Below, in pieces: positions 2,066 through 13,559 of a DNA stretch of 64,000 bases. The translations under genes were made by a program, and so were the position numbers. Under the pieces are notes generated by a model. It had not been told where the DNA came from. It saw only the letters and a list, made by a program, of their open reading frames with translations, and made no database searches. The stretch comes from Lepiota brunneoincarnata. Lineage: Eukaryota; Basidiomycota; Agaricomycetes; Agaricales; Agaricaceae. The stretch lies in NCBI GenBank assembly GCA_023014365.1, contig JAEBUN010000054.1:170936-234935 (forward strand), read 5' to 3'. Within the stretch, counting starts at the first letter, position 1, and each line of letters opens with the position of its first letter.

Positions 2066-4477
2066 GGGGCCTCTTTGAACCTCTTGTCATGTTCTTTGGC
2101 CTCACTAATAGTCCGGCTACCTTCCGGATGATGATGAACGATATCTTTCATGAACTTATAATGGAAGGGGTTGTGGTCATCTACCTAAATAACATTCTCA
2201 TCTTCACCCAGACTTTGGAGCAGTACAGGGACATCATTAGGCATGTTATGGAGATCCTCCAATGGCACAAACTCTACTTACAGCCAGAAAAGTGAGTTTG
2301 AACATACTCACATCAAGTACCTAGGACTTATTATCTCAGAAAACTCCATTGAGATGGATCCAGTCAAAGTTGCAGGAGTCAAGGAGTGGCCAACCCCCAA
2401 GGATAAATTAGGACTCCAATCCCTCCTAGGTTCCACCAACTTCTACTGTTGCTTTATCCAAGACTTCTCCCACATAGCATGACCCCTCTTTGACCTCACC
2501 TGAAACAGTGCTGCATGGCAGTGGAATTTGGAACAACAGGCAGCATTTGACAGCTTGAAGGCAGCTATCACTGCAGCTCCAGTTCTGGCTTCTCCAGACA
2601 ACAAGGCACCCTTCCAAGTAGAAGCCGACAGTTCAGACTTTGCAACTGGGGCAGTACTCTCTCAGCTCTCAGGAGATGATGGGAAGTGGCATCTGGTAGC
2701 ACTTTACTCTAAGGCTTTATCTCCAGTAGAGCATAACTATGAAATCCATGATAAGGAGATGCTGGCCATTATCCAGGCATTGGAGGAGTGGAGACACTTC
2801 CTTGAAGGAGCACATGAAAAGTTTGAAATCTAGATGGACCACAAAAATCTGGAGTACTTCATGACTGCTCAGAAGCTGAATTGCCAACAGGCATGCTGTG
2901 TTAGGGGAGTAAAGGGCACCGAAACCAAATTGATATTCAGGTGGCAATTACAATCGCCACCCACACTACATATATACATAGCGGCCTGTGCACAGACCGG
3001 GCAACTAAACACTACAGTAGCTACCAGAAATAATATGCACAAACAATATACAAACAACTACAAGATGGTGAAGTTGTCCGTGGATCAGGCTTGGGGATGG
3101 GGGTGGCCGAAGGCCGAGACTGGGCTTGGGCATCAGGCATCAGCTAAGGAGGCCAAGCCCAGACATCCAACTGCAAGTCCCTAGACGTACCTTGCGTAAG
3201 GGGGAGCGTAACGCGGAGCACGATGCCAGTCCCCTTACATGCTGGTCCCTGTACCTTTCCTGGTTTTATTTCTCCCTTCACTACTGCCCTGGTCATAGTA
3301 TGGGAAAGTCTGATGCCTTGTCCCAGAGATCCGATCATGGCTCAGGAGCGCATGATAATGCTGATATTACACTTCTCTCAGCATCTCTCTTTGCAGTATG
3401 GGCTGTGGACAGGATTTCCCTCCAAGGGGAAGAGCAGGCCCTTCTCTGAAATATCTGTTCCAGAAACCAAGGAGGCAAACAAGAGGAAACAGTGGCCAGG
3501 GCAGCCCAGGAACTCCAAAAGTCTGCAACATGCTCAGTGCACAGTGCTGAATGGTCTGAGCTGGATGGTCTGCTTCTTTTCCAAGGCAAGATATATGTTC
3601 CAGATGATGCAATGCTCCACCAATGCATTGTAGCCCTTCACCATGACTCTCAGATCGGGGGGCATGCTAGCTGATGGAAAACTCTAGAACTGGTCTCCTG
3701 AAACTACTGGTGGCCCAATATGTCTCATTTTGTAGTGGAACTCCCAGAGTCCAACAGGTATGATGCTGTCATGACAGTGGTTGACTCTGTCTCCAAGCAT
3801 GCTCATTTCATCCCAACACACACCACTCTTACAGCAGACAGAGCAGCATGGCTATTCCTCTATCATGTATGGAAACTACATGGACTTCCACAATAAGTGG
3901 TCTCAGATCAAGGTCCTCAGTTCATTGCATCATTCACCAAGGAACTCTACCACTTACTTGGAATCAAAAGTGCTTCTTCTACAGCATGGCATCCCCAATC
4001 TGATGGGCAGACAGAATGGATCAACCAGGAATTGGACCAATACCTCCAGATTTTTGTCAATGAGTGGCAGAATGATTGGCATGACCTCCTTCCCCTAGTA
4101 GAATTCCAGCATAACAATCACATCCATGCCTCCACTCAACACTCACCATTTGTGCTAGACACCAGCCAAAACCTGAGAATGGGGTTTGAACCTTGCCAAT
4201 GACCATCTCAGCTGAAAATAGTCAACAAGTTCAAATCCCAGATGAAATCAGCATTGGAGGAGGCAAGATCAGCACTCACAAAGTCCAAAGACAATATGGC
4301 AAGGTACTACAACCAACAGCAAACCCCAACTCTGGAGTTCAAAACTGGAGATAAGGTCTTTCTGGATGCGTCAGATATACAAATCACACAACCATCCAAG
4401 AAACTCTCACATTGCCAGTTGGGACCTTATGCAATTGACAAACAGATCAGCCCCAATGCATACTGACTGAAGTTGCC
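2066..4477 (+). pseudogene. pol: Ty3/gypsy pol remnant, part 1 (RT, RNase H, integrase)
   Basis: RT begins near 2066 with a FFGLTNSPATF block. The catalytic box at about 2178-2192 reads YLNN instead of Y(M/L)DD, so both catalytic aspartates are lost. A frame change near 2295 leads into the RT thumb (KYLGLIIS), and RNase H follows at 2528-2833 with EADSSDFATGAVL. After the solo LTR the frame resumes with GHSMGKSDALSQR. The integrase zinc region stops at GHAS near 3670 and jumps to VELPES, so about 35-40 residues including the CxxC pair and the first catalytic Asp are missing. VSDQGPQF and GQTEWINQE, with the second Asp and the Glu, remain at about 3897-4040. At least four stops break the reading. 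Confidence 0.85.
2899..3239. repeat. Solo LTR, copy 2, inside the RNase H / integrase linker
   Basis: A 341-bp insert, TGTTAGGGGAG...TCCCCTTACA, with a perfect 5-bp target duplication TGCTG at 2894-2898 and 3240-3244. Removing the insert and one TGCTG restores a continuous frame across the join between CQQAC and WSLYLSWF, where an RRQARW-type motif is usual in this family. It is clearly the same family as 53-374. Confidence 0.9.
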
Positions 4478-5175
4478 TGTTAAGATCCGTGCTCCTTCTG
4501 TATCCGAGGATAACTGGAGACGGCCTTCAATCACTCTACAAGGTGTCCGAGACGGTTGGCCTTATAGAGCTTAGTGGATCGCGCTCAATGAGATAACGAG
4601 GGAAGACGCCAAGTTAAGGCAGAGAGGTAAACGACCGCTGTTAACAAGATTAAAGCTTAGGGCTTTAATCTCTACTTGTACAGGCCTTATATACCTATGA
4701 GGTGCTATATACTCGTTATAGGTTACTTGGCTGTTCTACTGGTCGTCCGCAGTCCTGACCATGATGCACATCCTGGCTGATGGCATCCTAGTATTATTTA
4801 TATTACAATGAGTCAGTACTCTCGCTACTGCTGTGCGATGTTCCATCGCTTTCCTCTGACTCATAATCTCCTTCTCCCGATTGTATCTCCATGGGGTCCT
4901 CTCCGTTCTCGCTCTCCATTCTCTCAGTGCTTCCATCCGTATCGGAGGTTGGATCGGTTGATCCATGGTTATCTTCTTCGTCCTCGGGGTATTCCAATAT
5001 ATCCTCCAAGGTTACCTCCATTCCTGCTTCTCTCGCCAGGTCCTGCATGGCGGTGTAGTATTCCCCTTCCTCGTCTTCGTATTCTTGTGCCCGTAGTTGG
5101 TCTGTAGTCTCCTGTACCCATCTTGTAAAGTCGAACAGTAATTCTTGTTCCTCCCGGTCTGGACTGTTCATAACA
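4478..5175 (-). repeat. 3' LTR of the young chromovirus
   Basis: 698 bp; on the - strand it starts TGTTATGAAC and ends ATCTTAACA. The polypurine tract abuts its start. On the - strand U3 runs from 5175 to about 4659, with a TATATAA box at 4693-4687. If the transcript starts in the second arm of the hairpin just downstream, R plus U5 are about 180 nt. Most of U3 (5175-4803) is an open, strongly acidic reading frame continuous with ORF3b. Confidence 0.93.
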
Positions 5176-6374
5176 TTATCCCCTTCGTAAGGTCTGATGT
5201 CCTCATCAGACATATCCTCAGTATAGTCCGACAGGCTCTCCTGTAATGTTTGATTCGGCGATGGGGTCCCAGTCGAAGTATGGGTCGGGTTCTGGGGAGT
5301 CGCTTCGGTAACTTGGTGGTCTGGGGATGGCGGGTCTTGGGTGAGGTCGATGACGATGGGTTCTCTGGAGTGAATGGTGGCGGGTGTGCCGAAGGATCGA
5401 TTCAGGAAGTCGGTGGCTTCCACTAGCAGATGTGGTGGTGGCGTTGGTGGTCGGAATGACGACGGGGGCATTTTGAATTCGGGTGCGGAGGGGTCTGGCT
5501 GAAGCGGGGCGCTGCTCGGTGCTTGCAACAATGTGTCGAATATTGTTGTTTGTGGTTTCGCGTGTGAGGGATCGAGCTCTGCTTGGTATTCCTCGTGGGC
5601 GGCGATACAGGCCAGGTACCATACTTGCGGGTTGATGCTGGTAAGGGTTTCTCTCGCAGTGCTTCTCGTAATGGCCTGGGGCAATCTTTCGACAATATCG
5701 ACATTGGTAGCGCGGGCATCCTGCTTTGATATGGCCGAATCGACGGCAGCAATTGCAGCGAGTTCGGGTGGTGGATAAGTGAGTGGTGGTAGTCCCGACG
5801 GGGGCGTCATTAGAAGCAGATATAGCTTGTACAACACTTGATGGTTGGTTACTCGTATCCACCATGGGAGGGTTGGAAGGTTGGGTGGTGGTCCCGATAG
5901 GTAGGATAGGGCGGTCCTGACTTCCGCTTCCATTGCTCGGGCTTGGGATCGGACTCTCGAACGGGAATTCGGTGAGAGCGGTTGATAGCATGGCAGAAAT
6001 GGTGTTGCGGTCCTGTTCCTCTGTTGCGCTAGAAAGAATAGTGGCGCATAGTTCTTCGAATTCTGTTGTTCGGTCGTGGACGAGGCGCTTGTGATACAGA
6101 AGAGCAGTAAATGTCTTCCAGCAGGTGTCGACCAGGGGTACCATCGCTGGACTGCGTTTAAGACGGGTTCCGGTAATATGAAAGGGAACTTCGTGTAGAA
6201 GGATGGATCGTATCTCGGGTTGGTTGGAGGGAAGGAAGGTATGCCGGATGATATAAGGACTGTTGGTCCTGTCTGGTTGGTCGTCAGCGGTATCGGTGGC
6301 AGGGTTAGGTTGGCTATTTCCTTCGACGCGGTTCGCCAGGGATATGATTCTTTCCCGGATGAGAAGGCGTCCAT
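4803..6374 (-). CDS. ORF3b: 523-codon frame after pol, running into U3 of the 3' LTR
   Basis: This frame is -1 relative to pol and overlaps its last 61 bases. The first half is proline-rich and lies over ORF3a in another frame. At about 5341-5370 it has a SUMO-interaction-like core, IVIDLTQD. From about 5220 it becomes very acidic (Glu/Asp/Ser), passes through the polypurine tract and continues for 124 codons inside U3, stopping at 4803 well before the TATA box. I know no named domain for it. Either ORF3a or ORF3b may be the real protein here, both may be translated, or splicing may join them. A 1.57-kb open frame over another long ORF is unlikely by chance in sequence without strong codon bias, but I cannot measure that here. 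Confidence 0.5.
   Translation of the reverse strand: MDAFSSGKESYPWRTASKEIANLTLPPIPLTTNQTGPTVLISSGIPSFPPTNPRYDPSFYTKFPFILPEPVLNAVQRWYPWSTPAGRHLLLFCITSASSTTEQQNSKNYAPLFFLAQQRNRTATPFLPCYQPLSPNSRSRVRSQARAMEAEVRTALSYLSGPPPNLPTLPWWIRVTNHQVLYKLYLLLMTPPSGLPPLTYPPPELAAIAAVDSAISKQDARATNVDIVERLPQAITRSTARETLTSINPQVWYLACIAAHEEYQAELDPSHAKPQTTIFDTLLQAPSSAPLQPDPSAPEFKMPPSSFRPPTPPPHLLVEATDFLNRSFGTPATIHSREPIVIDLTQDPPSPDHQVTEATPQNPTHTSTGTPSPNQTLQESLSDYTEDMSDEDIRPYEGDNVMNSPDREEQELLFDFTRWVQETTDQLRAQEYEDEEGEYYTAMQDLAREAGMEVTLEDILEYPEDEEDNHGSTDPTSDTDGSTERMESENGEDPMEIQSGEGDYESEESDGTSHSSSESTDSL
5176..5188 (-). promoter_or_regulatory. Polypurine tract (plus-strand primer)
   Basis: On the - strand the bases before the 3' LTR read ACGAAGGGGATAA and then TGTTATG. 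A purine run at this exact position is the expected primer for second-strand DNA synthesis in LTR retrotransposons. It is only moderately pure (GAAGGGGA then TAA). It lies inside the ORF3b coding frame. Confidence 0.75.
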
Positions 6375-6432
6375 CGTTGTCTGGCTCTGGGAGGTCTGGA
6401 GTGGTTGCTCGAGTGTTGGGTGGTTGGGTCAT
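5218..6432 (-). CDS. ORF3a: 404-aa accessory protein with double zinc knuckle
   Basis: The ORF starts at an ATG inside the 3' end of pol (119-bp overlap, different frame) and stops before the polypurine tract. Residues 226-239 fit CX2CX4HX4C (CNCCRRFGHIKAGC), and 244-259 fit CX2CX6HX4C, so two zinc-binding units sit side by side, as in nucleic-acid-binding Gag-like proteins. The N-terminal about 160 residues include a possibly folded part (LVDTCWKTFTALLYHK). The C-terminus is basic and proline-rich and ends in a short acidic/aromatic tail with NITGEP. From memory, tails of this kind occur in mushroom-genome proteins of similar layout, but I cannot confirm it. The env position suggests an accessory function. 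No signal peptide or membrane segment is seen, so it is not an envelope protein. Confidence 0.6.
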   Translation of the reverse strand: MTQPPNTRATTPDLPEPDNDGRLLIRERIISLANRVEGNSQPNPATDTADDQPDRTNSPYIIRHTFLPSNQPEIRSILLHEVPFHITGTRLKRSPAMVPLVDTCWKTFTALLYHKRLVHDRTTEFEELCATILSSATEEQDRNTISAMLSTALTEFPFESPIPSPSNGSGSQDRPILPIGTTTQPSNPPMVDTSNQPSSVVQAISASNDAPVGTTTTHLSTTRTRCNCCRRFGHIKAGCPRYQCRYCRKIAPGHYEKHCERNPYQHQPASMVPGLYRRPRGIPSRARSLTRETTNNNIRHIVASTEQRPASARPLRTRIQNAPVVIPTTNATTTSASGSHRLPESILRHTRHHSLQRTHRHRPHPRPAIPRPPSYRSDSPEPDPYFDWDPIAESNITGEPVGLY

Positions 6433-9400
6433 TGGTGGGGTTGTCTAGTTTGTGGGCCCTTTTATATTCTTCAATGACTTCCTTGGCGTTCTCCAGGTTT
6501 GCTTCTGGTTCCCAGGAATCCTCGGTGGGAAGGTATCCTTTCCATCTGACTAGGAATTGATACTTGTTCCGGAATTTTCTGTGGCGCAGTATTGACTCGA
6601 CCTCGTATTCTTCTTCTCCATTTACAAGGTCGGGTGGTGGGGCTGTGTTGTATTCCCCATGTGTGTCGTTCTCTTCTGCAGGCATTAGGAGGCTCGCATG
6701 AAACTTGTTGTGGATCTTCCATTTGATGGGTAATTTTAGTTCGTAGGTTACAGGTCCGAGTTTTCTTGTTATGGTGAAGGGACCTTCTCGGCGTTGGGCC
6801 AGTTTCTTTGAGGCGTACTGAATTGGGAGGTTGCGGTTGTCGAGCCAAACCTTCTGTCCAACTTTTAGATTGATATCTGGCCGGTTATATCTTGCAGCCA
6901 TTTTTAGTCTGGCTTGTTCATGCGCAGCTTGGGCTTCTTGGCGTATCTTGGCGAGGTATTTAAACTTCTCTCCTATTGCTGGAATGTTCGTTGGCTCCTC
7001 GGAGGTCGGAAATCCTTTGGGGCTTGATCCATAGAGGAGTTCAAATGGGGTATGTTGGTGTTCGGCATGTGTTTTCGAGTTGTGGACGTATTCCAGGAGT
7101 GGGAGTGCCTTTACCCATTTGTTCGGGTTCGATGAGCAATAGATGCCAAGGTAGAGTTCTATTTCTTGATTGAATCGCTCTGTTTGTCCGTCTGTCTGGG
7201 GGTGGTAGGCGGTAGAGAGTGCTTGTTCGATTCCGAGTTGTTTGTAGAATTCTTTCATGGATTTGGCAGCGAATCTGGGGTCGCGATCACTGAGAACTTT
7301 CTCGGGAAGGCCAAATCTAGAGAATAGCCGTTTGATAAGAATTTCGGCGATCTTGTCCGCGTTGGCTGTTTTCGCAGTAGGTTCTAGAATTATCCCCTTC
7401 GTAAGCTGGTCGACCACGACCAGTATAGAATCATGGGGTCCATCCGGGGGTAGGTCTGTGATAAGATCCATCGAGATGTTCGAGAATGGACGGGTAGAAC
7501 GGGGTCCAGGGATAGGTTGAAGCGGTGGTTTTAGGGGGTGGCGATTGATCTTGTATTGTTGGCAAGCGCCACATCCTTTGACGTAGTTTTTGACAAATGA
7601 TCGCATCCCGGGCCAGTAGGCGTATTCCTGGAGTTTTCTAGTTGTTTCTGCGATTCCAGGGTGTCCTGCGGTGGGTGAGTCATGTACTCTTTGCAGTAAG
7701 CGGCGTCTGAGGTGTAGATCTTGTGGTATAAATAGCTTTCCTTGAACGCGTGGGTGTCCTGAGTCATCTTCTTGGGCGATGTCGGTTTGTTTCTTTTTCT
7801 TCCACAGCTCTTTTATTTCCTTTTTAGTGTTTTCGTCGATAATATGGATATGCTGTGGCTGTTCTGGGGTGAAGAATTTGTCAGGGAGTGCAACGACCTG
7901 TTTATTGTCTCTTGTCTTGGGTTCATGATCGGGTCGTCTGGAAAGGGCATCTGCTGGTCCATTTTTCTTTCCAGGGATATGTCGGATTTCGATGTCGAAT
8001 CGTTGCATGTAGGCAATCCATCGGGCTTGTCTTCTGCTGAGGTCTTCAGGTTTTCTCCAGCGGCGAAGGTTGTCGTGATCTGACCATACGATGGTCTTGT
8101 GTGATGATCCTTCTATGTGGTGGCGCCATTCTTTGAGTGCTCGGATAATGGCGAAGAGTTCCTGTTCGGAGCAATGATAGTTGCGTTCTGCTGGTGAGAA
8201 TCCTTTTGAGAAGTATGCGACTGGGTGTTTAACTCCATTGTTGTCGCGTTGGAGTAGGACTGCTCCTGATGCAAATAGTGATGCGTCGCATTCGATTTCG
8301 AAGGGTCTGTCTCGGTCGGGGACCATTAATACCGGTTCGCTTTGGAATTTTCTTTTGAGAGTATCGAAGGCGTTCTGGCATTCTTCTGTCCATTCGAATT
8401 TCTTGGTTTTGGACATTAGGGCATTGAGAGGTTTTGCCCATGTGGCGTATTGGTGTATGAATTTTCGATAGAAGTTGCAAAATCCTATGAATTTTCGTAC
8501 GTCGCGCGGGGTAGTTGGTGTTGGCCATTCAGCGATGCCTTTGAGCTTTGCTGGGTCCATCGAAACTGAGTCGGGAGTGATAATAACTCCTAGATATTCA
8601 AGTCGTTGTCGTTCGAATTCGCATTTCTCGGTCTTGAGGTATAGATCGTTGTCCTTGAGTATCTTGAGTACTTCTCTTGTGAGGCGTCGGAGTTCTTGTT
8701 TTGTTTTTGCGTGGATGAGGATGTCGTCCATGTAAACGATTACTCCTCCATTATCGATGAGTTTTCGAAATAATGAGTCCATCATGGTTTGGAATGTTGC
8801 TGGGGAGTTACACATTCCGAAGAACATAACCGTGGGTTCGAATAATCCTCGGGGTGTCCTGAAGGCTCCTTTCCATTCATCTCCTTTGCGTATGCGGATG
8901 TTGTTGTATCCTGCTCGTACGTCGAGTTTGGTAAAGTATTTTGATCCTCGGAGTTTGTCGAGAATATGAGAGATGAGGGGGAGGTTGTACGCATTTTTGA
9001 CGGTATGCTCGTTGAGGTACCTGTAGTCTTGACAGGGGCGTAGTTTTCCATCTTTCTTTCCTACGAAGAAGAAAGGTGATGCCATTGGTGATTCGGATGG
9101 TCGAATGTATCCCTTTTGAAGGTTTTCTTCTAGGAACGTGTCGAGTTCCTTTTCTTCATTGAGGGAGAGTCGGTAGGACTTCATGGCAATTGGTTTGAAT
9201 GATTCTTTGAGTTCAATTTTGTGATCCCATGGTCGTTGTGGGGGGAATCGTTCGGCTTGTTTCTTGCTAAATACTGGGAGGTATTCGTGGAATTCCGTGG
9301 GTACGACCTTTCTTGGGTCGTCGTTTTTCTTTTCTCCGTGTTGTACGGCAAGGAATTGTGATGCTGAGGCTTTGAAGTTGATTTCTTCGAAGCTTGTGGG

Positions 9401-9982
9401 CTCTAGTGTGGAGATGTGGTTGAGTTGGTCGTTGTAGATCCAATCGGGTTCCATGGATTGGATAAGTTCTCGGAATATAGTGTTGTCCCAACGTTCGTTT
9501 CTCCAGCGTAATTGTTTGGCATCCCAGTCGATGTCTGGGTTGTGTTCTGCAAGCCAAGGGAATCCAAGGATGAGTCTTGGGCTTCCGAGGGAGACTACTT
9601 TTGGTTTGATCTCCATATTCTTTCCGTTAACCGTTAGGTTGAGGGTCGTGTAGTGGGTGGCTGTTCCATTTTCGTTAACAGATCCGTCGGCATTTCGTAC
9701 TTCGATGGGTCGATCGAGGGGTGTCGTTTTGAATGAATGTTGTTTGACCATTCCGGGGTCAATGAAGTTTCCTGCTGCTCCTGAGTCGAGTAGGGCGAGT
9801 AGTTCCACGCTTTCGGGTCCTTCCTTAGTGAACTTGTGTTTTCGGATTCGACAGGGTAGATGTATTACGCGTGCTGACGATTCCTGTAACTTTACGACAT
9901 TAATATCATTTTGTGAATAGGAAAGGGAAGGAGGTCTTTGTGGAGGGCTAGACGTGGTGGCTAGTCTCCTTAGGCAAAATCC
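6314..9982 (-). CDS. pol: Pol polyprotein: protease, RT, RNase H, integrase, chromodomain
   Basis: The frame opens at 9982, just after a stop, and has no ATG near its start, so it is probably entered from gag by a -1 frameshift (TTTT at 9976-9979). Counting from a GTG at 9808, the protease motif LLDSGA is at residues 6-11, the RT box YMDD at 359-362, and RNase H shows IECDASLFASGAVL. The integrase zinc domain has GHPGIAETTRKL...CGACQ, and the DDE core shows SMDLITDLP, SDRDPRF and GQTERFNQE. A chromodomain (VESILRHRKF...FLVRWKGY...DSWEP) lies at about 1065-1115. All catalytic residues I can place are present, and the length is normal for a chromovirus. The chromodomain is known in this family to steer integration toward modified histones. 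Confidence 0.95.
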   Translation of the reverse strand, partial: GFCLRRLATTSSPPQRPPSLSYSQNDINVVKLQESSARVIHLPCRIRKHKFTKEGPESVELLALLDSGAAGNFIDPGMVKQHSFKTTPLDRPIEVRNADGSVNENGTATHYTTLNLTVNGKNMEIKPKVVSLGSPRLILGFPWLAEHNPDIDWDAKQLRWRNERWDNTIFRELIQSMEPDWIYNDQLNHISTLEPTSFEEINFKASASQFLAVQHGEKKNDDPRKVVPTEFHEYLPVFSKKQAERFPPQRPWDHKIELKESFKPIAMKSYRLSLNEEKELDTFLEENLQKGYIRPSESPMASPFFFVGKKDGKLRPCQDYRYLNEHTVKNAYNLPLISHILDKLRGSKYFTKLDVRAGYNNIRIRKGDEWKGAFRTPRGLFEPTVMFFGMCNSPATFQTMMDSLFRKLIDNGGVIVYMDDILIHAKTKQELRRLTREVLKILKDNDLYLKTEKCEFERQRLEYLGVIITPDSVSMDPAKLKGIAEWPTPTTPRDVRKFIGFCNFYRKFIHQYATWAKPLNALMSKTKKFEWTEECQNAFDTLKRKFQSEPVLMVPDRDRPFEIECDASLFASGAVLLQRDNNGVKHPVAYFSKGFSPAERNYHCSEQELFAIIRALKEWRHHIEGSSHKTIVWSDHDNLRRWRKPEDLSRRQARWIAYMQRFDIEIRHIPGKKNGPADALSRRPDHEPKTRDNKQVVALPDKFFTPEQPQHIHIIDENTKKEIKELWKKKKQTDIAQEDDSGHPRVQGKLFIPQDLHLRRRLLQRVHDSPTAGHPGIAETTRKLQEYAYWPGMRSFVKNYVKGCGACQQYKINRHPLKPPLQPIPGPRSTRPFSNISMDLITDLPPDGPHDSILVVVDQLTKGIILEPTAKTANADKIAEILIKRLFSRFGLPEKVLSDRDPRFAAKSMKEFYKQLGIEQALSTAYHPQTDGQTERFNQEIELYLGIYCSSNPNKWVKALPLLEYVHNSKTHAEHQHTPFELLYGSSPKGFPTSEEPTNIPAIGEKFKYLAKIRQEAQAAHEQARLKMAARYNRPDINLKVGQKVWLDNRNLPIQYASKKLAQRREGPFTITRKLGPVTYELKLPIKWKIHNKFHASLLMPAEENDTHGEYNTAPPPDLVNGEEEYEVESILRHRKFRNKYQFLVRWKGYLPTEDSWEPEANLENAKEVIEEYKRAHKLDNPTNDPTTQHSSNHSRPPRARQRWTPSHPGKNHIPGEPRRRK

Positions 9983-11094
9983 TTAACCAGAGGGGCATCT
10001 GGGTGGTTGGATTCGTTTGCAAAATGTTCGTAGATGTCCTCGACTTCCTCGTCGGTTGCATCTTCTAGTATGTTGTATAGGGAATTCTTCTTCCTATAAC
10101 TTGCTTGTCTTCTTCTGGATATCGCATTTGACCGGTTTCTGGCATCCAAATTGCGGGGTAATTCGGATCGGCGATATATTGTCTTCTTGGTGGGGCATTC
10201 GCGGGCGAAGTGTCCAGTCTTGCGGCAGTTGAAGCATCTCTTTTCTTTGAGATCCTTTCTTTGGGCGTCCGTGAGGATTGCATTGAGGGCTTCACGGGTG
10301 CGTTCTTGTACCAACTGGTGGAGTCTGTCTTCTTCGATCTCCTCGTCTTCATCAGCTTCCTCGGCGAGTAGATCTGGCTCGTCCTCAAAGTCGAGGTTGT
10401 AGACTGCTTCGGCGAGTTGGTCAATATCCATTGCGTTAGGGTCTGTTGCTTGATAGGGCAGTGGGACACGGCGCGTAAAAGCATTTCTTTTCCCTTTAAA
10501 TGGGCGAGTGCGCGAAGTCGTTGGAAACGAGGGAGTTCCTCGAGTTTGCATATAGTCGCGTTGAGTTTGTAGTATTTGATATGCTGTTCGAGCTTGCTTG
10601 AACCAGTCGCTGAGTTTGTTTCCTGGATTGAGGCTAATTGTCTTGATTGCGACGGGGCGATCCAGCCCGTTCTTGAAATAGTTGACCGCCGCCACTCCAT
10701 CTCCAAGGTCGGCCTGATAGGCAAGTATCTGGAACTGGGATATGTAATCATCGATATATCGTCCATTCTGTTTGAGGTGGCGGATTCTGTCCATTGCATC
10801 GGCGGGGACATTGTTTGGGGCGAAGGATGTATCGAGTCCTTCGAGAAATTTCTTCCATGTCGGAAGGGTCTGGCTTCCATCAAGTTCTTTGTTTGATTCC
10901 AAGAATGCTCCTCTCCATGTTGCGGCGGGGCCGGTGGACATGTATGAAAGGGCGAATTGTATCTTGGTCTTGTCATCGGAAAAGGCTCCTGGCTTTGCAT
11001 CGATGTATAGTTGTACTGCATCCTTCCAGAGGCGGAAGTAGTCGGTCTCTCCATTAAAGGTTGGGGGTGTGTTAATTTTTGCGGAGGAGGCCAT
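9970..11094 (-). CDS. gag: Gag capsid/nucleocapsid protein
   Basis: 374 aa from the first ATG in frame. Residues 1-180 have the retrotransposon-gag capsid look (PPTFNGE, WKDAVQLYIDAK, YISQFQILAYQ, YFKNGLD). An acidic segment at about 236-256 precedes a CCHC zinc knuckle CFNCRKTGHFAREC at residues 287-300. The same frame stays open upstream without any ATG to about 11592, in a serine/proline-rich stretch typical of disordered Gag N-termini. The true protein is therefore probably longer and begins in the frame of ORF-N (ATG at 11831). The stop TAA at 9972-9970 overlaps the start of the pol frame by 13 nt. Confidence 0.9.
   Translation of the reverse strand: MASSAKINTPPTFNGETDYFRLWKDAVQLYIDAKPGAFSDDKTKIQFALSYMSTGPAATWRGAFLESNKELDGSQTLPTWKKFLEGLDTSFAPNNVPADAMDRIRHLKQNGRYIDDYISQFQILAYQADLGDGVAAVNYFKNGLDRPVAIKTISLNPGNKLSDWFKQARTAYQILQTQRDYMQTRGTPSFPTTSRTRPFKGKRNAFTRRVPLPYQATDPNAMDIDQLAEAVYNLDFEDEPDLLAEEADEDEEIEEDRLHQLVQERTREALNAILTDAQRKDLKEKRCFNCRKTGHFARECPTKKTIYRRSELPRNLDARNRSNAISRRRQASYRKKNSLYNILEDATDEEVEDIYEHFANESNHPDAPLVKDFA
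9976..9979 (-). promoter_or_regulatory. Candidate -1 ribosomal frameshift site, gag to pol
   Basis: On the - strand the zero frame reads GAT TTT GCC TAA. A Phe-tRNA on TTT can slip back one base and still pair with TTT, because GAT supplies the fourth T; reading then goes on as TGC CTA in the pol frame. The gag and pol frames are both open for only 13 nt (9982-9970), so any slip must occur here. It is not a canonical X XXY YYZ heptamer. -1 gag-pol overlaps are known in fungal elements of this group. Confidence 0.65.
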
Positions 11095-11540
11095 ATTGTT
11101 AATGTCAGAGGTTGTGGATTCCTCGTCGGAAGTGTGAATAGACCCGGTAGTGGGGCTAACTTCGGATGGTTCGGATTGTACAGGGGAACTGGATCGAGGC
11201 GGTGAGTGTACCGGTGATCCAAGTGGTGATGCGAGGGGTGAGAATGTTCTTGGGGGTTTCTGTTGCGAAGTGTTGTCGCTAGTTCTTGTACTTGTTGAGG
11301 GTTGAGGACCGGAGGATGGGGTAGATGTTCTATGAATCGGCTCCCCGAGCTTTGAGCGGGTAGAGGTGGCAGTTCTTTCAGGTGGTGGTTGTTTAGGTAG
11401 GGATTGAAGAACTGATGCTGGGGGTGCTGGGTATCCTGGGTCTTCTGTTCGACGTTGAACTCTCTCGGTAGGTTGTGTAGGGTACGGTGCGGAACCAGAG
11501 GGTGAACGAGTGAGGGGTATAGGTTTTGTTTTCTTTTTAG

Positions 11541-11831
11541 GGTCCGTGGTGGAGGGGGTGTGAAGTCGGGTTCGGAGTCGGTTGTCGACCAGTCAGAACT
11601 GTTGGATTCTTCGTAGTCGGTGGCAAGGGGGTCGTTTCGGTTTGTAGACAGGGTGAAGAGGGAAGAAGTCGAAGGTGAGGGTGAGGGTGAATAAACAACG
11701 CTTGCGGGTGCGTTATCCCAATCGACGCTTGAAGGTGCGGATGACCTGTATACAACGCTTACGGGTGCGTTATCCCAATCAACACTTAAAGGTGTGGATG
11801 ACCTATCAACGCTTTCGGTGCGTCTGACCAA
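11541..11831 (-). CDS. ORF-N: putative start of Gag, in the frame one step before gag
   Basis: A clean ATG at 11831, about 190 nt downstream of the 5' LTR, opens a frame rich in Ser/Thr/Pro. It contains a 57-bp direct repeat (two units between about 11700 and 11810) that encodes VDWDNAP(V/A)SVVY twice. Its sense-looking part ends near 11541-11560 at a C-rich run, where the gag frame is already open (to 11592). Passing from ORF-N to gag needs a -1 shift, a short intron, or an extra base lost in this copy. The ORF-N frame stays open to 10065, but that part lies antiphase over gag and looks like a shadow. Confidence 0.55.
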
Positions 11832-11881
11832 GGGTGCAGAGGGTATGGTGGCCTGCTCTACGGGGGTGTATCACCGGACAG

Positions 11882-11972
11882 CGACAAGGCGTGTCGTCAG
11901 ATACGGTTGGCACTCGGATAGCGATAAAGCGTATCGTCTGCCGGTGTGGAAGGGTAGCGACAAGGCGTACCG
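11882..11972 (-). other. Three tandem covarying hairpins in the leader RNA
   Basis: Three 15-nt units lie at 11882-11896, 11922-11936 and 11958-11972. On the - strand they read CGACA-CGCCT-TGTCG, CGATA-CGCTT-TATCG and CGGTA-CGCCT-TGTCG. Each folds into a 5-bp stem (the third through two G-U pairs) with loop CGCYU. The first two stems differ by a compensatory change, and the third keeps pairing through wobbles. The hairpin at 11958-11972 extends outward to about 10 bp with one mismatch. They lie between the priming site and the ORF-N start, where packaging or dimerisation signals are found in retroelements. The function is inferred. Confidence 0.6.
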
Positions 11973-12007
11973 ATACCACGGGGTGTACGATGGAGGTTGT
12001 CCAAAGG

Positions 12008-12019
12008 AAGCTTTAATCT
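12008..12019 (-). promoter_or_regulatory. Self-priming primer-binding site
   Basis: Two bases inside the 5' LTR boundary the - strand reads AGATTAAAGCTT. This is the perfect reverse complement of AAGCTTTAATCT inside the LTR (12202-12191 on the - strand), about 35 nt downstream of the TATA box. I see no tRNA-like TGG start at the LTR edge. In Tf1/sushi-group elements the first 11 or so bases of the RNA fold back onto such a site and are cut by RNase H to make the primer. The arrangement here matches that. Confidence 0.75.
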
Positions 12020-12021
12020 AA

Positions 12022-12719
12022 TGTTAAGATCCGTGCTCCTTCTGTATCCGAGGATAACTGGAGACGGCCTTCAATCACTCTACAAGGTGTCCGAGACGGT
12101 TGGCCTTATAGAGCTTAGTGGATCGCGCTCAATGAGATAACGAGGGAAGACGCCAAGTTAAGGCAGAGAGGTAAACGACCGCTGTTAACAAGATTAAAGC
12201 TTAGGGCTTTAATCTCTACTTGTACAGGCCTTATATACCTATGAGGTGCTATATACTCGTTATAGGTTACTTGGCTGTTCTACTGGTCGTCCGCAGTCCT
12301 GACCATGATGCACATCCTGGCTGATGGCATCCTAGTATTATTTATATTACAATGAGTCAGTACTCTCGCTACTGCTGTGCGATGTTCCATCGCTTTCCTC
12401 TGACTCATAATCTCCTTCTCCCGATTGTATCTCCATGGGGTCCTCTCCGTTCTCGCTCTCCATTCTCTCAGTGCTTCCATCCGTATCGGAGGTTGGATCG
12501 GTTGATCCATGGTTATCTTCTTCGTCCTCGGGGTATTCCAATATATCCTCCAAGGTTACCTCCATTCCTGCTTCTCTCGCCAGGTCCTGCATGGCGGTGT
12601 AGTATTCCCCTTCCTCGTCTTCGTATTCTTGTGCCCGTAGTTGGTCTGTAGTCTCCTGTACCCATCTTGTAAAGTCGAACAGTAATTCTTGTTCCTCCCG
12701 GTCTGGACTGTTCATAACA
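12022..12719 (-). repeat. 5' LTR of the young chromovirus
   Basis: 698 bp and, by eye, identical to the LTR at 4478-5175. It contains a perfect 10-bp inverted repeat with a 5-nt spacer (12191-12200 and 12206-12215). Read on the - strand the arms are AGATTAAAGC and GCTTTAATCT. The second arm is the predicted RNA 5' end that pairs with the priming site at 12008-12019. The boundary with the flanking TTGCC duplication is exact. Confidence 0.95.
12231..12237 (-). promoter_or_regulatory. TATA box of the 5' LTR promoter
   Basis: On the - strand this reads TATATAA. Position 12202, where the self-complementary 12-mer begins, is 35 nt downstream of its first T, a plausible TATA-to-start distance. A second, weaker GTATATAG lies about 18 bp upstream. 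The same box occurs in the 3' LTR at 4687-4693. The transcription start itself is inferred. Confidence 0.65.
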
Positions 12720-13111
12720 TTGCCAAAATCTATGAGATGCCTCCATCCAGTCTTCAACATGGTAAAGCTCACACCCACTCCCATAGACCCTATTCCTGGA
12801 TGCCATCCCAAGCCACCACCAACATCCATCATCATTGAGGACAAAGAAGAGTGGGTAGTTGAGGAAATTCTAGACAGCCACATCCACCAGAGGAGACTCC
12901 AGCTCCTAGTAAAATGGAAAGACTTCAGGATTGAAGAAAACTCCTGGGAATCGGCTGACAACATCCATGCCCCCGACTGTGTAATGGAATTCTATCAACA
13001 GCACCTGGGAGCTCCAAGACAGATCAGAAGTCTCACATTTGGCTCAATCCCTTTCTGTGCCCTTGACCCACCCATTGTGCCAAGTCATCACAACCTTGAA
13101 GGGGGGGTAGA
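12720..13111 (+). pseudogene. pol: Decayed Ty3/gypsy pol remnant, part 2 (chromodomain)
   Basis: This continues the pol remnant that stops at 4477. The integrase tail (HPVFNMVKLTPTPIDPIPG) is followed by a chromodomain at about 12840-13000 with EEWVVEEILD, LLVKWKDF and ENSWESADNI, then LEGGV just before the LTR. The frame stays open through the polypurine tract and 98 codons into the LTR, ending at 13406. The chromodomain's aromatic positions look preserved, although the rest of pol is broken. Confidence 0.85.
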
Positions 13112-13559
13112 TGTAAGGGGAACTTCAGGTCACTGCTCACAACCTCAAATTCAGAAATCCAATTCCCTGCCTCTCTATGTTCGGAAACCCAATCCCCAGC
13201 TTCCCTATGCTCAGATATCCAATTCCCTGCCTTCCTGCATTTGGAAATCTCATCCCCAGCCCCCTTCAGCCTGGAATTCAGTCCTCCAGCACTCCAGTAC
13301 TCAGAGTTCCTTCCTATGCCCCTCCAATGCAGATGTGAACCCTCACTGGCGCATGCAACCCTGTCCCGAGCCCATTCCTGACCATACCCACTTTAGACAT
13401 CCCTGACACCTCACAGCCATTTATGTAGAGTAGATTACTTAACTTGGACTTATGGCAAGTAGTATAAGTAATGTAGGTGAGCTCAGAGAAACCTTACTTA
13501 ATTCTCTAAGGTTTCCCCCTGCTCAGTCGACATGACACGACAACCAGGTTGCCCTTACA
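13112..13559 (+). repeat. 3' LTR of the decayed element, with 30-bp tandem repeats
   Basis: 448 bp from TGTAAGGGGAAC to TTGCCCTTACA, directly after a polypurine run. Inside, 13151-13300 consists of five consecutive 30-bp units (each resembling TCAGAAATCCAATTCCCTGC plus 10 bases), diverged in sequence but not in length. Its terminal motif TGTAAGGGG/CCCTTACA resembles the ends of the solo LTRs at 53, 2899 and 31894, so these families are probably related. Confidence 0.75.

Follow-up and report, generated by a model that had tools for sequence, protein, structure and literature searches.

Two overlapping open reading frames downstream of pol, probably both genes, in a Ty3/gypsy chromovirus of Lepiota brunneoincarnata

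Accessory frames that extend into the U3 region of the 3' long terminal repeat (LTR) are known from retroviruses: lentiviral nef and mouse mammary tumour virus sag both do so, and nef also spans the polypurine tract (PPT). The gag-pol frame of the plant CRM clade extends into the 3' LTR (PMC3605345), rotifer (bdelloid) elements carry a third open reading frame (ORF) after pol, with ORF3s typically expressed from spliced messages (PMC5408684), and plant elements have additional ORFs, including antisense ones, besides gag-pol (PMC11963269). Fungal chromoviruses are generally described as having one or two ORFs, gag and pol; most full-length elements in a fungal survey are of this form, and a figure legend there marks some 'add. 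ORF' of unknown function (PMC2864245). The main text of another fungal survey does not contain 'additional ORF', 'third ORF' or 'three ORF' (PMC3248453). Here we analyse a 64,000-nucleotide (nt) stretch of the Lepiota brunneoincarnata genome (contig JAEBUN010000054.1, positions 170,936 to 234,935; hereafter the window), in which a Ty3/gypsy chromovirus on the minus strand carries two long frames, ORF3a and ORF3b, that overlap between pol and the 3' LTR. We consider it probable that this Agaricomycete chromovirus, which was recently active, carries both as genuine overprinted accessory genes, maintained by purifying selection during its multiplication.

A first-pass annotation of the window had proposed two long minus-strand ORFs sharing about 1.16 kb after pol; its coordinates and frames were right, and the overlap measures 1,157 nt (Table 1). 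The first 61 nt of ORF3b (6374-6314) are also read by pol, and at its other end ORF3b spans the PPT before running for about 123 codons inside U3. Coding thus crosses the PPT into the 3' LTR as in the plant CRM clade, but there gag-pol with its chromodomain enters the LTR, whereas here a separate accessory frame does (PMC3605345); the pol frame stops at 6314, 1.1 kb before the LTR. The third ORFs of rotifer and plant elements likewise lie between pol and the 3' LTR, but the kinds described in the available portions of the papers are esterase, exonuclease, transmembrane, coiled-coil, env-like and antisense, with no overlapping pair (PMC5408684, PMC11963269). Basidiomycete chromoviruses, compared as pol proteins only, share this element's set of pol domains, including the chromodomain and SH3_Tf2-1, and the same database holds no ORF3 relative beyond a 99% copy. 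Among open-licence papers, to which the search was limited, none was found that describes a chromovirus with a pair of overprinted ORFs downstream of pol. The earlier statement that no chromovirus is known with this layout therefore agrees with the open-licence literature, but LTR coding itself is known in the plant CRM clade (PMC3605345).

Copies were sought in the same genome (55.6 Mb, 95 contigs), and all selection data come from this one genome. A 62-residue query spanning the zinc knuckles of ORF3a, for which 150 of 606 candidates were scored and counts are lower bounds, identified at least 138 near-identical copies (136 by the cut and two that are rearranged or cut, L071 and L072), together with at least 12 older copies (L059-L070) that are 81-87% identical in the fragment and 87.5-92% in DNA. 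Such a young, high-copy family offers a natural data set in which selection on overlapping frames can be measured simultaneously. The selection sample comprises 89 young copies and the window's own (90 of the 136 listed), plus the 12 older copies. Stops are present in ORF3a of 11 and ORF3b of 7 of the 89 young copies, all of them TGA, and those of the older copies mostly reflect CpG decay, in ORF3a and ORF3b alike. The ORF3b ATG is retained in 89/89 young copies and the ORF3a ATG in 84/89, the other five being cut at the first base; both start codons are present in 12/12 older copies. Each zinc-knuckle ligand is kept in 88-89 of the young and 11-12 of the older copies. The older subfamily has decayed mainly by CpG transitions, which suggests repeat cytosine methylation in this fungus.

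Selection was counted over 6313-5221 on non-CpG variants, shared variants being those in at least 2 of 90 copies, with an expectation for each mutation type. The expectations take rates as equal within a mutation type, several tests were run, and insertions in the copies were ignored. Because codon position 1 of ORF3b is position 2 of ORF3a, hardly any change leaves both proteins unaltered. We infer that transposition spread most of the variants found in several copies and that most singletons arose by later decay. The shared non-CpG variants number 38: 2 alter both proteins, where 14.6 are expected, 6 alter neither (0.4 expected), 16 alter ORF3a only (11.2 expected) and 14 alter ORF3b only (11.8 expected); none creates a stop. 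Variants that alter ORF3b are silent in ORF3a in 14/16 cases (45% expected, P=0.0005), and those that alter ORF3a are silent in ORF3b in 16/18 (44% expected, P=0.00009). Non-CpG transitions per site number 6/9 where neither protein changes, 16/241 for ORF3a only, 13/264 for ORF3b only and 1/284 for both, rates near multiplicative and hence about what two independent constraints would give. Excluding the 29 top copies by ORF3a score leaves the result standing (9/10, P=0.004; 15/16, P=0.00003); of the 60 copies retained, 20 hold ranks 31-50 in the same ranking. For the 40 copies taken from the knuckle list, the ORF3b test gives 10/10 (P=0.0004; P=0.006 with CpG variants). The third frame of the overlap, taken as a control, lacks constraint. 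The way mutations are distributed among copies suggests that selection maintains both proteins. Stops together with neutral third positions in sister copies, which the first-pass annotation had named as the mark of a chance ORF, were looked for, and they demoted neither frame.

Several results weigh against two selected genes. In the 40 knuckle-list copies the ORF3a test reaches 4/4 (P=0.053), or 23/37 with CpG variants (P=0.17), and when CpG variants are kept in the 90 copies the ORF3a marginal is not low (P=0.13 for those in at least 4 copies, 0.30 for all); recurrent CpG variants blur the ORF3a signal. Singletons are also biased for ORF3b (P=0.002), so they are not a purely neutral class. 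Among 46 fixed differences between older and younger copies in the overlap, double changes are weakly depleted (12 vs 15.7, P=0.05) and the conditional tests are non-significant (15/27, P=0.16; 18/30, P=0.06). ORF3b constraint is non-significant in the second half of the overlap (5/7, P=0.10), and for ORF3a in the first half the evidence comes from 5 variants silent in both frames (0.4 expected), its nonsynonymous marginal there being P=0.60. Codon usage in the ORF3b tail is unlike that of pol (-0.134 per codon, with gag at 0.068). The proteins also stand nearly alone, with no relatives identified in other species: ORF3a has one match among 3,250 candidates, a 99% identical copy over 76%, ORF3b none among 7,996 scored, neither matches a Pfam family, and their AlphaFold models are unusable, with mean pLDDT of 44.5 and 40.9.

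The uneven distribution of constraint lends itself to a reading in which one frame at a time is the gene, ORF3b in the first half and the U3 tail and ORF3a from the knuckles on, the rest of each frame being open by accident or the product being a frame-switched or spliced chimera. We regard this as possible but doubtful. Constraint on ORF3b is strongest in 6313-5776 and that on ORF3a in 5775-5221: shared non-CpG variants changing ORF3a alone and ORF3b alone number 11 vs 1 in the first half and 5 vs 13 in the second (Fisher P=0.0008). Purifying selection is reciprocal over the whole overlap, and within the halves each conditional test is significant in a single half only. Against it, variants altering both proteins are too few in each half (0 vs 5.9 expected, P=0.0008; 2 vs 8.9, P=0.00085), doubly silent sites are over-used in the first (5 vs 0.4, P=0.0001), and both start codons are retained in young and older copies alike.

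Openness of the frames was assessed by fixing one protein and permuting synonymous codons across the overlap in 10,000 shuffles. With ORF3a fixed, the ORF3b frame was open in 0/10,000 (mean 7.0 stops), and with ORF3b fixed, the ORF3a frame was open in 3/10,000 (mean 6.9 stops). The same element carries a further long frame over gag, by which the reliability of long open frames can be checked directly. It is open across 342 gag codons, a stop-free run as long as which was reached in 0/2,000 synonymous shuffles. In 11 copies and the window's, its variants fall at gag codon positions 1, 2 and 3 in numbers of 13, 9 and 42; counting singletons and shared variants, 51 are nonsynonymous in this frame (42.4 expected), while gag itself has 21 altering variants (41.8 expected). 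Listed identities genome-wide are 98-100% for gag copies and 95-100% for the overlapping frame. Because this equally improbable frame lacks amino-acid constraint, openness is no evidence of coding here, and we discarded it as a proof. The ATG-started part of the frame over gag is without a listed stop in 115 of 122 scored copies, despite the lack of amino-acid constraint.

The failure of the gag-overlapping frame in the selection test also gives some weight to the idea that the overlap holds one gene and a chance frame, kept open by composition, the coding strand there being C-rich and T-poor (36% C, 18% T), and by the youth of the family, whose first 30 copies compared are 98.2-100% identical to the window's element over about 3.4 kb. 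We consider this unlikely, as the conditional tests, made in both directions, reject neutral evolution of either frame once the other is taken into account, and neither the third frame nor the gag-overlapping frame has the signal under like tests. For the 11 copies used in the gag control, with all shared variants, the ORF3 pair gives 10/11 (P=0.005) and 10/11 (P=0.006). Codon usage compared with pol gave no clear ranking of the overlap frames (per codon, ORF3a 0.039, ORF3b -0.005, third frame -0.052).

The ORF3b tail in U3 is constrained too. Variants present in at least 4 of 90 copies comprise 17 silent (7.1 expected) and 4 altering changes (13.8 expected), and of the 22 fixed differences that separate older from younger copies there, 8 are nonsynonymous (P=0.0004), one of them scoring as a stop when taken site by site. 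TATA-like sites occur at 4802, 4711 and 4693. We take the TATATA at 4693 as the probable TATA box and 4658 as the likely transcript start; the ORF3b stop (4803) lies about 110 nt upstream of the former and 145 nt upstream of the latter. U3 coding and the core promoter would then occupy separate stretches, as ORF3b ends before this presumed TATA box. Constraint on the tail supports the earlier proposal of coding in U3, whereas the forced co-evolution of promoter and protein attached to it need not follow.

The motifs noted in the first pass are present in both proteins. ORF3a has zinc knuckles of the forms CX2CX4HX4C (C226/C229/H234/C239) and CX2CX6HX4C (C244/C247/H254/C259) and a basic C-terminal part (residues 221-404, 184 residues) with an isoelectric point (pI) of 10.8. 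ORF3b has a single SUMO-interaction-like IVIDLT at residue 340 (window position 5357), a type of pattern with a chance of 0.4% in the shuffled protein, as well as its acidic tail. The motif is unaltered in at least 86 of the 89 young copies and reads LIIDLT, LVIDLT, LVINLT or IVIDLT in the older ones, one of which is missing there. Judged from these features, ORF3a is most likely an extra nucleic-acid-binding protein, and ORF3b could be its acidic partner, perhaps nuclear and SUMO-binding.

Air1 and Air2 are zinc-knuckle proteins of the TRAMP complex, and Air2 has further knuckles. Among solved chains, yeast Air2 resembles the ORF3a knuckles with E=0.00047 for the 62-residue fragment and 0.0092 for the whole protein, and it is the only one under E=0.001 for the fragment. 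ORF3a could on this basis be a captured host gene derived from an Air1/Air2-type RNA-surveillance protein, hindering decay of the element's RNA, with ORF3b overprinted later; this is compatible with two overprinted genes. Such an origin is improbable, given that the likeness spans 38 residues of a common motif, with one residue of difference in the second spacing, and that no Pfam family was matched; ORF3a has only two knuckles and, in addition, a long basic tail.

At the position where retroviruses carry env, an env-like or retrovirus-like glycoprotein gene is hardly credible for either frame: a single RLKR at ORF3a residue 90 is in its favour, but the highest 19-residue hydropathy values are 0.85 (ORF3a) and 0.94 (ORF3b), far below the usual transmembrane threshold of 1.6, so that by the hydropathy window neither protein has a transmembrane-like segment; ORF3b contains 3 cysteines and lacks an RX[KR]R site, and the env reading was rejected. 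The resemblance of ORF3b to nef drawn in the first pass concerns position. Like nef and sag, the frame extends into U3, and like nef it crosses the PPT. In contrast to nef, the ORF3b N-terminus MDAFSSGKESYP (MDAF...) has no glycine at position 2 for myristoylation, and ORF3b has no similarity to solved chains (PDB) at E<=1; the resemblance therefore does not extend to a sequence relationship.

For two overprinted genes, a route of expression can be proposed. Ribosomes scanning the full RNA would hardly arrive at ORF3a or ORF3b, which makes splicing the likeliest route: a subgenomic message that most likely keeps part of the AUG-free leader, joined just before ORF3a. The first AUG they would then meet is that of ORF3a, whose context is weak (C at -3, A at +4); leaky scanning would carry some of them past it to the ORF3b AUG, which lies 58 nt further on with no AUG between and has a strong context (A at -3, G at +4). 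The RNA start is placed at 12202 since this is 35 nt past TATATA, has 12-nt primer-site complementarity and is ATG-free to gag. The leader has 0 ATG, with a mean of 10.7 in mononucleotide shuffles, 0/5,000 of which were ATG-free; this fits scanning ribosomes. Its only donor-like site is CCC|GTAAGC (11762), and an acceptor-like CTAG ends at 6445; the absence of a CTRAY branch-point consensus in 6640-6375 adds to the points listed above against two genes. A tandem pair of 56-nt repeats (89% identical) in the leader, at 11692-11804 on the minus strand, contains the donor-like site. Tf1-type elements are self-priming, the RNA 5' end being complementary to the primer site. Here, 12/12 nt of complementarity between the inferred RNA 5' end and a site beside the 5' LTR make self-priming a candidate only.

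A broader proposal, which we hold to be rather speculative, is that the region resembles that of a complex retrovirus, with two overprinted proteins, a zinc-knuckle RNA-binding one and an acidic SUMO-binding one whose tail lies in U3, made from a single spliced, leaky-scanned message, the AUG-free leader being selected, and both countering host RNA surveillance or silencing. The locus suggests that retrovirus-like accessory genes can originate in retrotransposons that lack an envelope.

Table 1. Features of the chromovirus and its ORF3 region in the window
Feature	Position	Strand	Evidence or remark
Ty3/gypsy chromovirus, LTR to LTR	4478..12719	-	LTR pair and Pfam domains; target-site duplication (TSD) TTGCC flanking both ends
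3' LTR	4478..5175	-	LTR-pair comparison
ORF3b tail in U3, about 123 codons, pI 4.05	4803..5175	-	variants in at least 4/90 copies
ORF3b, 523 residues, pI 4.4, IVIDLT, acidic tail	4803..6374	-	ORF list, motif and selection analysis
Polypurine tract GAAGGGGATAA	5176..5186	-	inside ORF3b
Dual-frame overlap, 1,157 nt	5218..6374	-	ORF3b codon position 1 = ORF3a codon position 2
ORF3a, 404 residues, two CCHC zinc knuckles	5218..6432	-	ligand codons 5757-5656
pol: protease, reverse transcriptase, RNase H, integrase, SH3_Tf2-1, chromodomain	6314..9808	-	Pfam; frame open from 9982
gag	9970..11094	-	Pfam: Ty3-type capsid, one CCHC knuckle
601-codon open frame over gag	10068..11870	-	first ATG 11054; unconstrained; negative control
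AUG-free leader, 1,108 nt	11095..12202	-	inferred transcript start to gag ATG
Candidate self-primer site AGATTAAAGCTT	12008..12019	-	exact complement of AAGCTTTAATCT at 12202-12191
5' LTR	12022..12719	-	LTR-pair comparison

The element is a recently active fungal Ty3/gypsy chromovirus. It has the order protease, reverse transcriptase, RNase H, integrase, a C-terminal chromodomain, TG..CA LTRs and a short TSD; the protease match is marginal (RVP_2, 21.0 bits vs a Pfam cut-off of 20.3). The LTRs are 698 bp (TGTTA..TAACA), and with two matching flank bases the 3' LTR is identical to 12022-12721 at 700/700 positions. Its pol has 4,265 relatives in the protein database. Among the 120 listed, the closest full-length proteins are 59-60% identical, one of them from Agaricus bisporus var. 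burnettii (60%), and the other named relatives we take to be Agaricomycetes. The viral contigs searched hold no relatives of ORF3a or pol.

On the plus strand, peptides recognised by eye flank the chromovirus, RNase H- and integrase-like on one side and chromodomain-like on the other (2528-4202 and 12720-13406). They apparently belong to another retroelement that was the target of the chromovirus insertion. Dispersed 144-nt and 36-nt repeats accompany these retroelement-like peptides.

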